Made by a program: the position numbers and the translations under genes | Notes under the pieces: model-generated | What the model saw: only the letters and a program-made list of their open reading frames with translations | Database searches by the model: none | Told to the model about the DNA's origin: nothing | Assembly (NCBI GenBank): GCA_001005265.1 | Contig: CP011392.1 | Span: 372,001 to 436,000 of the forward strand | From: Dehalogenimonas sp. WBC-2 | GTDB taxonomy: Bacteria > Chloroflexota > Dehalococcoidia > Dehalococcoidales > Dehalococcoidaceae | Direction of reading: 5' to 3' | DNA: 64,000 nucleotides | Shown: one piece after another, positions 38,021-42,908 of the stretch | Layout of the letters: each line of letters opens with the position of its first letter | Position numbering within the stretch: position 1 is the first letter of the stretch

Positions 38021-38047
38021 CAGGTGTTTGAAGCTAAGGTGGTTGGA

Positions 38048-38617
38048 ATGAAACGCTGTTCCTGGCCGGAATCCGGTGGTGAACTGATGATAGACTACCA
38101 CGATAAGGAATGGGGAACACCGGTGCATGACGATCAGAAACACTTTGAATTTCTGGTGTTAGAGACATTTCAGGCCGGTCTTAGCTGGCTTACCGTATTA
38201 CGAAAGAGGCAAAATTTTGCGAAGGCCTTCGGTGGTTTTAATCCTGTAATCGTTGAGGCGTATGATGCCGCAAAAATTGAGGAATTAGCAGCCGACGCAG
38301 GCATTATCCGTAATCGGATGAAAATTTCCGCTGCAGTTAACAATGCTCGCAGGTTGTTAGAGGTGCAACAGGAATTCGGCAGTTTTGACCGCTATTTATG
38401 GAGTTTCGTTGACGGCCAGCCGGTAATTGGTAATTGGGTATCAATGGATCAGATACCTGCCAAAACAGAACTCTCCGACCAGGTCAGCGCCGATCTCAAA
38501 CGCCGCGGATTTAAATTTGTTGGTTCAACTATCATTTATGCCCATTTGCAGGCGGTCGGCATCGTAAACGACCATGTGGTTGACTGTTTCAGGTTCAAAG
38601 AACTGGTACAGGTTTAA
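38048..38617 (+). CDS. tag: DNA-3-methyladenine glycosylase I
   Basis: A protein of 189 residues that removes 3-methyladenine from DNA. It contains MKRCSWP at the start (zinc Cys), YHDKEWGTPVHDD, LETFQAGLSWLTVLRKR and the C-terminal YAHLQAVGIVNDHVVDC zinc-ligand region. The ATG at 38048 with AAGGTGG upstream is preferred over the GTG at 38024. Confidence 0.93.
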   Translation: MKRCSWPESGGELMIDYHDKEWGTPVHDDQKHFEFLVLETFQAGLSWLTVLRKRQNFAKAFGGFNPVIVEAYDAAKIEELAADAGIIRNRMKISAAVNNARRLLEVQQEFGSFDRYLWSFVDGQPVIGNWVSMDQIPAKTELSDQVSADLKRRGFKFVGSTIIYAHLQAVGIVNDHVVDCFRFKELVQV

Positions 38618-38687
38618 GAAAAGGGCTTTGAACGAATTTTGAAGATGGCAGGTGTGACATTATACTGTTATACGAGGTGAAAATATT

Positions 38688-39209
38688 ATGAAAGTGACTG
38701 TCTATACTACCCAGACCTGACCGCATTGTCATACGGTGAAAGGGTTCCTTTCACAACGGGGTATTCACTTTACTGAGGTTGATGTTTCCACAAATGCGGC
38801 CGCTGCTCAGGAGTTGGTGCGGCGCACCGGGCAAATGGCGGTTCCGGTAACGGATATTGACGGTAATCTGGTAGTAGGTTTCGACCAACGGAAATTGGAA
38901 CACTATATCTCACAGGCTAAAAATGCTTCTGCGCCAAGTCTGGGGGCGTCGGTTGCGGACGCTGAAAAATATACCGCGGCGCATGGTATGACAGTTTCCC
39001 GCGGCGCTTATATCGGCGGCGTTAAACAGGGTTTATCGGCAGCAAAAGCCGGACTCAAGACCGGAGACATCATTACAAAAATTGATTCCACAGCAATTAA
39101 CACTGCGGCTGACCTTGATAAGGTCATCGGTTCACTGGAAAAAGGCGCCAGGCTGAAAATTACCTTTATACGTGACGGCCAACCGCGCCAGACCGAAGGC
39201 TTGCTTTAA
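38688..39209 (+). CDS. Glutaredoxin-PDZ protein, probable selenoprotein (UGA at codon 11)
   Basis: From an ATG at 38688 behind GAGGTG, the frame reads MKVTVYTTQT, then an in-frame TGA (38718-38720), then PHCHTVKGFLSQRG and on to a stop at 39207. The TGA sits exactly where the first Cys of the glutaredoxin C-x2-C motif belongs, giving U-P-H-C. The glutaredoxin domain (1-80, with TGQMAVPVTDI) is followed by a PDZ domain (about 95-170; GGVKQGLSAAKAGLKTGDII). A SECIS-like hairpin follows the UGA. If it is not selenocysteine, then this is a nonsense mutant. I prefer the selenoprotein reading. Confidence 0.8.
38736..38754 (+). promoter_or_regulatory. SECIS-like hairpin after the in-frame UGA
   Basis: A perfect 8-bp stem GTGAAAGG/CCTTTCAC closes a three-base loop GTT. 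The loop starts with G and lies 23 bases after the UGA, within the spacing and loop rules I know for bacterial SECIS elements. It lies inside the coding sequence, as expected for bacteria. Confidence 0.65.
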
Positions 39210-39240: not shown

Positions 39241-39807
39241 ATGTCAGCAGAAATCATGTTGAATACGGCCAGGCTTAGGTTGAAACGCTTAGGACTGGAA
39301 GATGCACAAGCACTTTTCAGTTACCGCTCAATGCCAGGCGTATACCGCTTTCAGTCATGGCGCCCGGTTGATATTAGAGATGCTGTGGTATTTATTAATG
39401 ACGTAGCAGATATACCTGATATCCCCGGCACGTGGTATCAATTAGCTATTTTTCTCAAGAAGACTCAGCAGCTTATTGGCGATATAGGTGTCCATTTTTC
39501 GGCGTCAGGTGAAAAAAGAGAGGTAGAGTTAGGCTGTACTCTGGCTCCGGAATCTCAAGGTTTTGGATATGCAACTGAGGCTTTGACTGAGGTCATTGCA
39601 TACTTATTTACCAGTTTAAAGAAACGCTCAGTGCGTTTTTCAATAGACCCACGCAATATCCCATCTATAAAACTGGCGCTTCGACTCGGATTGCACCAGG
39701 TTGAATACCTTGAGAAGAGTGTTTGTATTGATGGGGAATGGTGCGATGATGTGATTTATTCTATTGATGCGGCGGAATGGTCACTCTGCCTTACAGTTGA
39801 TTCTTAA
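39241..39807 (+). CDS. GNAT-family N-acetyltransferase
   Basis: A protein of 188 residues of the RimJ/RimL type: TARLRLKRLGLEDAQALFSY near the start, strand QLIGDIGVHF, and the acetyl-CoA loop region ESQGFGYATEALTEVIAYLF. The substrate is not known. It sits between the selenoprotein gene and a terminator. Confidence 0.82.
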   Translation: MSAEIMLNTARLRLKRLGLEDAQALFSYRSMPGVYRFQSWRPVDIRDAVVFINDVADIPDIPGTWYQLAIFLKKTQQLIGDIGVHFSASGEKREVELGCTLAPESQGFGYATEALTEVIAYLFTSLKKRSVRFSIDPRNIPSIKLALRLGLHQVEYLEKSVCIDGEWCDDVIYSIDAAEWSLCLTVDS

Positions 39808-40186: not shown

Positions 40187-40443
40187 GATATCCTCCTGTT
40201 TTTTGGTCCACCTAAAGGCGTCCAATCATATTAACGTCTGACAAACTTATAAGATATAATCATCCCCAAAAATTCGTCGATTACTACTATTGTAACTTAA
40301 ATATCAGGTTTGTGGAATCCGTAAAACTACTCAATTCGGCATGTTAATTCACCTATTCTTGTTGTGCAGGCGAGGAATTTCACTTCACGAAATTTTGAGA
40401 TATTATGAAAGATAGTACATCTAATGGTCACAGGAGGTTGGAT

Positions 40444-41577
40444 ATGGAACTGTTGCATAGGGAAGACATGCTGGAAATGTTGAAAAGGCCGGAAAGCCCA
40501 GCTGTGACCATATACTTGCCGACCCACCGCACCGGCGATACCGAAGCTGACCCCATAAGGTTCCGCCATGTTTTGGATGAGGCGGAAAACCGGTTGGTTG
40601 AAACTGGAGTCAGGGCGCCTGTCGCCCGGAAGATGCTGGCCCCGGGCCGGAACCTGCTGCCGGATGGTCTCTTCTGGCAACATCAGGAAGAAGGGATGGT
40701 CTGTTTCATAACGCCGTCATCGTTTAGATATTACACTCTGCCGTTCACCGTGCCGGAGACCGTGGTGGTGGCGGATGATTATCATATCAGGCCGCTGCTG
40801 CCTCTTCTGGAAAATGATGGGATTTACTATTTACTTTCTTTGAGTTTGAACAATACCAGCTTGTTTCAAGCCCGTAGGTTAGTCAGCCGGGAAATCCCTC
40901 TGCCGGAAGAACTGCGGAATATGGTGGATGCTAACCAGCATGATGATTCAGAGAAATCCCTGCAATATCATACTACCGGCCCCGGTCCGGCCATATTTCA
41001 CGGGCAGTCCGACCCGGATAATTTCAATAAAGCCCATATCACCCACTTTTTACAGAAGCTCAGCCGGGAGTTAGAAAAAATACTGGCTACAGAGCGGGCC
41101 CCACTGGTTGTAGCTGGCGTGGAAAATATCCGGACAATGTTTCGCGGGGAATGTGCGTATGCCCATATCTTAGAGGAAGGCATTGAAGGTAATCCGGAGC
41201 GGATGACGCCTGAAAAGCTCCACGCTGCTGCCTGGGAGACCGTCAGTCAGTACTTTGGCCGACAGCGAGAGCAGGTATTATCACAGTATCTCAACGCCTC
41301 CGGGCCGGAGAGATCGGTTAAAGGGTTGGAATCGGTTTTATTCGCCGCCGAGGATGGAAGGGTGGCGGCTCTATTTCTCACTGAAACGCTGGAAGCCAGG
41401 GGCACGATTGACCGGATGCAGCGGAAAATTGAAATTGATCCCAACCCCGTTTCTGACAATACTGACCTGGTTGAATACTCTGTCAGGCAAACGCTTATGA
41501 CCGGGGGCGATGTCTACGTTCTAACGCCCGAAGAACTGCCGGATGCGGCGGAAATCTCTGCGATGCTGAGGTATTGA
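40444..41577 (+). CDS. baeRF-family (archaeo-eukaryotic release-factor-like) protein
   Basis: A protein of 377 residues with the family's N-terminal block PAVTIYLPTHRTGDTEADPIRFRHVLDEAE, the central YYLLSLSLNNTSLFQARR, and the C-terminal YSVRQTLMTGGDVYVLTPEELP. These proteins resemble eRF1 domains 2-3 and may act on stalled ribosomes, but this is unproven. The ATG at 40444 has AGGAGG six bases upstream, so the ATG at 40405 is not used. It is a single gene. Confidence 0.78.
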   Translation: MELLHREDMLEMLKRPESPAVTIYLPTHRTGDTEADPIRFRHVLDEAENRLVETGVRAPVARKMLAPGRNLLPDGLFWQHQEEGMVCFITPSSFRYYTLPFTVPETVVVADDYHIRPLLPLLENDGIYYLLSLSLNNTSLFQARRLVSREIPLPEELRNMVDANQHDDSEKSLQYHTTGPGPAIFHGQSDPDNFNKAHITHFLQKLSRELEKILATERAPLVVAGVENIRTMFRGECAYAHILEEGIEGNPERMTPEKLHAAAWETVSQYFGRQREQVLSQYLNASGPERSVKGLESVLFAAEDGRVAALFLTETLEARGTIDRMQRKIEIDPNPVSDNTDLVEYSVRQTLMTGGDVYVLTPEELPDAAEISAMLRY

Positions 41578-41852: not shown

Positions 41853-42908
41853 ATGAGCGCGGACATGCCTGAAATTGGTAAAATTTCCCCGGATATCTTC
41901 CGGGAGATTATTTTCCCTCGGCTGGGGGCAAAAAGTGACAGTGTCCTGGTTGGGCCGCAGCACGGCGTTGATGTCGGTATCGCCGAAATTGGCGGGCAGG
42001 CGGTATCATTTACTACGGATCCGGTTTTCATCGTGCCTCAGTACGGCTGGGAGCGGGCTGCCTGGTTTGCCATTCATATAATTGCCTCAGATTCGGCCAC
42101 CAGTGGTCTCAAGCCCAAATACCTGTCCATTGACTTAAATCTGCCGATGGAGATGTCCAAGGAAGAGCTTGAGGTTATGTGGGAGGTAATGCACCGGGAG
42201 TGCCTCAAGATGGACATAAATATCATTACCGGGCATACCGCCCGCTATGAAGGCTGTAATTATCCTATGGTTGGCGGTGCTACCATGATTGGTATCGGCG
42301 GGCTGGATGAATATGTTTCCCCTAAGTTTGCTAAAATCGGTGACGTTATCATCATCACCAAAGGCCCGGCCATAGAAGCCTGCGGCATTTTTGCGGCCAT
42401 GTTCCCAGACCGGATCGCCGCTGAATACGGCGAGGACTTTGCCCATAAGGCCGAAGGAATCTTCTATCAGATGTCGGTAGTGGAAGATGCTATGGCCGCG
42501 GTGTCGATTGGTGTCCGGGATGACGGGGTGTCTTCTATGCATGACGCTACCGAATGCGGCTTGTGGGGCGGGCTATATGAAGTGGCACAGGCGGCGGGGC
42601 TGGGGGCGCGGATTGATAAGGACAAGATAGTGGTGGCTGATGGTGTGCCGGAAATATGCCGTTTATTTAACATTGACCCTTACGCGTCAATAAGTGAAGG
42701 CAGCCTTATTATTACGTGCCGACCACATAAGGCTGAGGCGGTAGTTGCAGCGCTTAAGGCTAAAGGCATACATTCCTCAGTGGCCGGTGAACTGACGGAA
42801 GTGGAAAGAGGCATGATCCTCATAGATGATGGCCGGGAGAAGCCGCTGGAACACCCTATAGTTGATCCTTTCTGGCGGGCGTTTTATGATGCCGCCAAAA
42901 AAGCTTAA
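41853..42908 (+). CDS. AIR-synthase-related (PurM/HypE-like) protein under TPP control
   Basis: A protein of 351 residues of the PurM-fold family, with VGPQHGVDVGIAEIGGQAVSF, FTTDPVFIVPQYGWERAAW, NIITGHTARYEGCNYPMVGG and SSMHDATECGLWGGLYEVA, which contain the Mg-ATP-binding acidic residues. The protein is close to HypE and ThiL in fold. Because it is the first gene of a TPP-riboswitch operon with thiE next, a role in thiamine metabolism is likely, possibly as a ThiL-like kinase or a related ATPase. The exact reaction is unknown. The start follows AAGGAG. Confidence 0.82.
   Translation: MSADMPEIGKISPDIFREIIFPRLGAKSDSVLVGPQHGVDVGIAEIGGQAVSFTTDPVFIVPQYGWERAAWFAIHIIASDSATSGLKPKYLSIDLNLPMEMSKEELEVMWEVMHRECLKMDINIITGHTARYEGCNYPMVGGATMIGIGGLDEYVSPKFAKIGDVIIITKGPAIEACGIFAAMFPDRIAAEYGEDFAHKAEGIFYQMSVVEDAMAAVSIGVRDDGVSSMHDATECGLWGGLYEVAQAAGLGARIDKDKIVVADGVPEICRLFNIDPYASISEGSLIITCRPHKAEAVVAALKAKGIHSSVAGELTEVERGMILIDDGREKPLEHPIVDPFWRAFYDAAKKA

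Follow-up and report, generated by a model that had tools for sequence, protein, structure and literature searches.

An in-frame UGA at the redox site of a glutaredoxin-PDZ gene in Dehalogenimonas sp. WBC-2 is very probably read as selenocysteine

The stretch of DNA analysed here (the window) comprises 64,000 nucleotides of the Dehalogenimonas sp. WBC-2 genome, and one of its genes carries a TGA where a cysteine would be expected. The open reading frame runs on the forward strand from an ATG at 38688 to a TAA at 39207-39209, is interrupted once, by a TGA at codon 11 (38718-38720), and continues from there for 162 codons. Is this UGA a stop, or does it encode selenocysteine (Sec)? On readthrough the N-terminus becomes MKVTVYTTQT-U-PHC, so that the TGA occupies the place of the expected first redox cysteine of a glutaredoxin (Grx) and Sec takes the first position of a UPHC redox motif. 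The initial annotation had described 38688-39209 as a selenoprotein gene in these terms, and its coordinates, the UGA at codon 11, the U-P-H-C motif and the 162 further codons were all recovered. With the UGA taken as Sec the product has 173 residues, a full length that is kept across the phylum. The sequence GAGGTG (38674-38679, forward strand), 8 nt before the ATG, is a probable ribosome-binding site, and GAGGT-like motifs occur at roughly the same distance from the ATG in the relatives within the genus.

Two domains make up the protein. The first, of the YruB-like glutaredoxin type (38694-38873, residues 3-62), matched Pfam PF00462 with an E-value of 9.5e-18 (64.6 bits against a cut-off of 22.9) and NCBIfam TIGR02196 (YruB) with 91.5 bits against a curated cut-off of 88.55. 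The second is a PDZ domain of the HtrA/DegP type (38934-39194, residues 83-169; Pfam PF13180, PDZ_2, E-value 1.2e-14), which DegQ and DegP chains matched in a sequence search of the PDB. Since the protein begins at once with the glutaredoxin domain and no signal sequence was seen, it is probably located in the cytoplasm. A single-sequence AlphaFold model reached a mean pLDDT of 38 and was set aside. Its neighbours are the genes for a 3-methyladenine DNA glycosylase, at 38024-38617, and for an acetyltransferase, at 39241-39807. Nearby, the product of 40405-41577 belongs to the bacterial archaeo-eukaryotic release factor superfamily (baeRF; Pfam E-value 2.3e-33).

Mechanical ORF calling placed the start at the GTG at 38736, past the UGA, and returned a protein of 157 amino acids that lacks the redox centre, which bears out the expectation of the initial annotation that gene finders would begin behind the UGA. 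Precisely this ORF would be obtained if the UGA were a true stop, separating a 10-residue leader from a shorter protein that starts at GTG 38736. We consider such an arrangement very unlikely, because the GTG lies inside a hairpin (described below) with no ribosome-binding site in evidence, conservation extends to either side of the UGA, and the 22 homologues that are open at this site have a cysteine there. Moreover, the codons upstream of the UGA are under constraint at the level of the protein: within the genus, the number of changes per codon pair in codons 1-10 was 0 at the first and second positions versus 0.375 at the third, and this restriction of the variation to third positions implies that the segment before the UGA is translated.

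The homologues delimit what codon 11 may be. Across the 294 genomes searched within the class, 40 full-length Grx-PDZ genes were found, the one in the window included, with TGA at the site in 24 and a cysteine codon (TGT or TGC) in 16; no other residue or stop was found among them. Another 20 homologues from elsewhere in the phylum divided into 14 with TGA and six with Cys, which brings the full-length Chloroflexota genes to 60 (38 TGA, 22 Cys and nothing else). Alignment of homologues had been proposed in the initial annotation as a check, on the ground that a residue other than Cys or Sec would speak against it, and none of the 60 copies has one. All eight Dehalogenimonas genomes retain the TGA, at protein identities of 64-79%. 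It is true that TGA is a single base away from TGC and TGT, so that an ordinary Cys glutaredoxin might have acquired its stop by mutation or sequencing error; but the same codon is TGA in eight independent genomes of the genus as well as in numerous further families of the phylum, the remainder of the frame is intact, and neither TAA nor TAG ever occurs at this codon in the full-length forms. That the gene is a pseudogene or an artefact is therefore the least probable of the readings considered here, to the point of being negligible.

The distribution of SelB points in the same direction as the codon. Of the 26 genomes with a TGA form (two frameshifted copies counted), 24 have a SelB match, versus 10 of the 16 with a Cys form, and both SelB and the Grx-PDZ gene are missing from three genomes of a sister genus that is presumably Dehalococcoides. 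The two Sec-form genomes without a SelB match are drafts (G040, 69% complete, and G041, 94% complete); the hairpin core in G041 is just 6 bp long. In two related drafts (L138 and L139) the Grx-PDZ frame is broken at the identical place, near residue 50. Two short glutaredoxin genes (L142:528-572 and L144:528-572) have a TGA at the redox site and no hairpin in the usual place; they may use another type of SECIS element or represent something else. Scanning genome contigs with the protein brought up chiefly PDZ-only relatives, which are uninformative on the codon-11 site. Viral contigs contained short relatives with the glutaredoxin part only, and a DNA search in plasmids gave zero matches.

Insertion of selenocysteine depends on a dedicated machinery, the absence of which the initial annotation had named as grounds for abandoning the reading. 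The genome, a single contig of 1,725,728 bases, contains the whole set in one cluster, in the order selC, selD, selA, selB, at positions 1686340-1691174. The tRNA-Sec encoded by selC scored 68 bits, over the cut-off, and was assigned the anticodon TCA by ARAGORN; SelA, SelB and SelD were matched with E-values of 3.5e-128, 9.7e-109 and 4.3e-105, respectively. An in-frame TGA with a hairpin behind it is present in selD as well, and in the formate dehydrogenase gene of the same genome the TGA is followed by a hairpin with a GGUCU loop. According to a survey, all analysed Dehalogenimonas genomes have selCDAB and a Sec-containing formate dehydrogenase (PMC13390414), and for D. alkenigignens selenophosphate synthase and formate dehydrogenase were named among "multiple genes" for Sec proteins (PMC4918011); neither publication mentions a glutaredoxin. 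Two other candidates were discarded in this context. An AIR-synthase-like protein in the window (41853-42908) shows weak likeness to HypE, ThiL and SelD, in each case below the cut-off, and was rejected as the SelD of this genome. The second glutaredoxin-like match in the genome (L120) is an ordinary Cys protein, and its TGA is its stop.

A further alternative is that the UGA is translated otherwise, as Trp or Cys by near-cognate readthrough or through a changed genetic code. A changed code is not the explanation, since TGA is the ordinary stop of several long ORFs within the window; and with the whole Sec machinery present and a SECIS-like hairpin tied to the UGA, we regard decoding of this other kind as highly improbable.

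The hairpin is located at 38736-38754 on the forward strand (GTGAAAGG / GTT / CCTTTCAC), with an 8-bp stem (38736-38743 paired with 38747-38754) and a GTT loop (38744-38746). It corresponds to the perfect 8-bp hairpin with a G-first loop that the initial annotation had placed 16 bases past the UGA: its onset is the 16th base past the UGA, 23 nt separate the UGA from the loop, and the minimum free energy of the hairpin alone is -8.5 kcal/mol. All four constraints of a published bacterial SECIS model (PMC13188914) are satisfied (GUU loop, 8-bp stem, 23 nt, -8.5 kcal/mol). On single-sequence grounds the hairpin is nevertheless weak evidence. It is energetically unexceptional (fold z-score -0.79), a hairpin of at least 7 bp arose in place in 3.3% of random synonymous recodings of the same protein, and for the common form a comparable one arose in 2-6% of cases. 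In an Rfam scan of the region the SECIS family was unmatched, and one chance match was all that appeared.

It is the comparative evidence, and not the energy, that puts the hairpin far beyond chance. Within the class, 23 of the 24 Sec forms, and none of the 16 Cys forms, have a hairpin of 7 bp or more in place. In the 37 Sec forms that share the common geometry 97.3% of the cells are paired, and sliding the pairing partner lowers this to at most 71%. These forms contain 25 compensatory cells versus a shuffle mean of 6.9, and not one of 500 shuffles reached as high a count; examples are the replacement of U-A by C-G at pair 2, and of A-U by G-C or C-G at pair 8. At the same positions in the 22 Cys forms 40.3% of the cells pair, which equals the shuffle level. 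Within the genus, third-position variation is about sevenfold lower in the codons of the hairpin than elsewhere in the domain (0.077 vs 0.525). Relatedness limits a phylogenetic test to three independent pairs, and the hairpin accompanies the UGA in nearly all pairings. The alignments thus indicate that the hairpin is conserved as an RNA structure in the UGA forms and lost in the Cys forms. Three more Sec forms have another geometry, with 7 bp and a 4-nt loop, that begins at the same base.

Sec and Cys appear to have replaced each other repeatedly. The tree needs four Sec/Cys changes, at least three of which are forced by well-supported branches, and an arrangement of all Cys forms as a single clade was rejected (p-AU 0.00015). 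The tree and the different hairpin together suggest that Sec was regained inside a Cys group (G186, G109 and G208), although a tree that holds the Cys rows together was not rejected (p-AU 0.21). The forms with the 7-bp stem and the 4-nt loop (L114:1918-1962, L134:531-575 and L137:335-379) are nested among Cys forms, and an independent regain of Sec is possible for them.

Given the presence of selCDAB, a site that is only ever TGA or Cys, translated codons ahead of the UGA and a hairpin tied to that UGA, we are highly confident, as far as sequence can tell, that the Grx-PDZ gene encodes a functional selenoprotein with Sec at its active site. In the proposed mechanism, SelB carrying Sec-tRNA(Sec) would bind the hairpin at 38736-38754, and the UGA at 38718-38720 would be decoded as selenocysteine. 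The product would be a glutaredoxin of 173 residues in which a U-P-H-C centre is joined to an HtrA-type PDZ domain; we infer in this way that selenium is inserted at codon 11. In glutaredoxins the N-terminal residue of the motif attacks and the second cysteine resolves. By analogy, Sec11 would be the attacking residue, a nucleophile directed at disulfides or other oxidised thiols, and Cys14 would resolve. Most likely, the PDZ domain would bring the redox centre to the C-termini of clients or partners.

With respect to the physiological role, the gene neighbourhoods of the relatives are informative. In 10 of the 30 neighbourhoods from the class, dnaK, dnaJ or clpB lies directly upstream on the same strand (confirmed with Pfam for representatives). 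The loci concerned are L207, L209, L212, L213, L215, L216, L218, L225, L227 and L230. Both Sec forms (G149, G170, G052 and G213) and Cys forms (G071, G062, G175, G094, G039 and G143) are found next to a chaperone gene, and the adjacency spans five families of the class. The occurrence of three different chaperone genes at one position is suggestive of a shared role rather than a single inherited arrangement. In the genus itself no chaperone gene is adjacent, and the functional prediction therefore rests on the relatives. As their gene is often found directly behind dnaK, dnaJ or clpB, we tentatively favour, as the most likely one, a chaperone-linked role in which damaged proteins are repaired by reduction or undergo quality control. 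The protein may instead be a general thiol reductase that works with thioredoxin reductase or a small thiol, in the manner of NrdH or YruB, without any link to chaperones and with the PDZ domain serving another partner, an idea that we entertain just as tentatively. The similarity to YruB and NrdH agrees with it, as do a rubrerythrin gene upstream in G007, the missing chaperone neighbour in the genus and a short Sec paralogue in G045 (L140, about 500-1219) that is followed by a thioredoxin-reductase-like flavoprotein, a possible reductant partner; the recurrent adjacency to dnaK, dnaJ or clpB in five families of the class does not. To return to the chaperone-linked role, a more speculative extension is that the Grx-PDZ selenoproteins act throughout the phylum as a redox co-factor of DnaK, DnaJ and ClpB; oxidised clients would be offered to the Sec centre by way of the PDZ domain. 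If this is true, one branch of protein repair in the cytoplasm would depend on selenium.

A conserved redox enzyme of the organohalide-respiring and other Chloroflexota is thus probably mis-annotated in many genomes, since standard gene calling removes its redox centre. The alternation of Sec and Cys within the family, with the hairpin following, provides a clean natural test of the loss and gain of SECIS elements, and the adjacency to chaperone genes makes a role for selenium in protein repair testable.

Glutaredoxins with Sec (PF00462, UxxC) are already known, e.g. from Geobacter sulfurreducens and Clostridium oremlandii (PMC13188914, PMC9312934), and three cases had been included in PMC1794560. 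The protein in the window shares with these the replacement of the first redox cysteine by Sec and a bacterial SECIS element right after the UGA, whereas the known type is given as a plain glutaredoxin and the present one is YruB-like and fused to a PDZ domain. Like the Trx7/PDZ family NF041199 it combines a thioredoxin-fold domain with PDZ and has selenoprotein forms, but that family pairs CxxU with Thioredoxin_7 where the window protein has UxxC, and the score of 38.3 bits (cut-off 300) stems from the PDZ part only, which places the protein outside the family. With the Uxx-star families (NF041212, NF041211 and NF041114) it has in common a small glutaredoxin-like domain with an N-terminal Sec, but it stays under every cut-off (55.5 bits against 66 for NF041212, hence no member of it), retains the second cysteine and has a PDZ domain. 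The glutaredoxin domain lies above the cut-off of YruB (TIGR02196), a model of 74 positions without PDZ, and differs in the Sec that replaces the first cysteine. None of the NCBIfam models among the matches listed for the protein covers the Grx-PDZ combination, and a selenoprotein family named for it was not found in NCBIfam or two reviews, nor a description of it in the papers retrieved from a literature covered in part, so that an earlier one may exist elsewhere. Very probably, then, the gene encodes a genuine selenoprotein with an unlisted combination of domains, which is made by a known mechanism and not by a new one.
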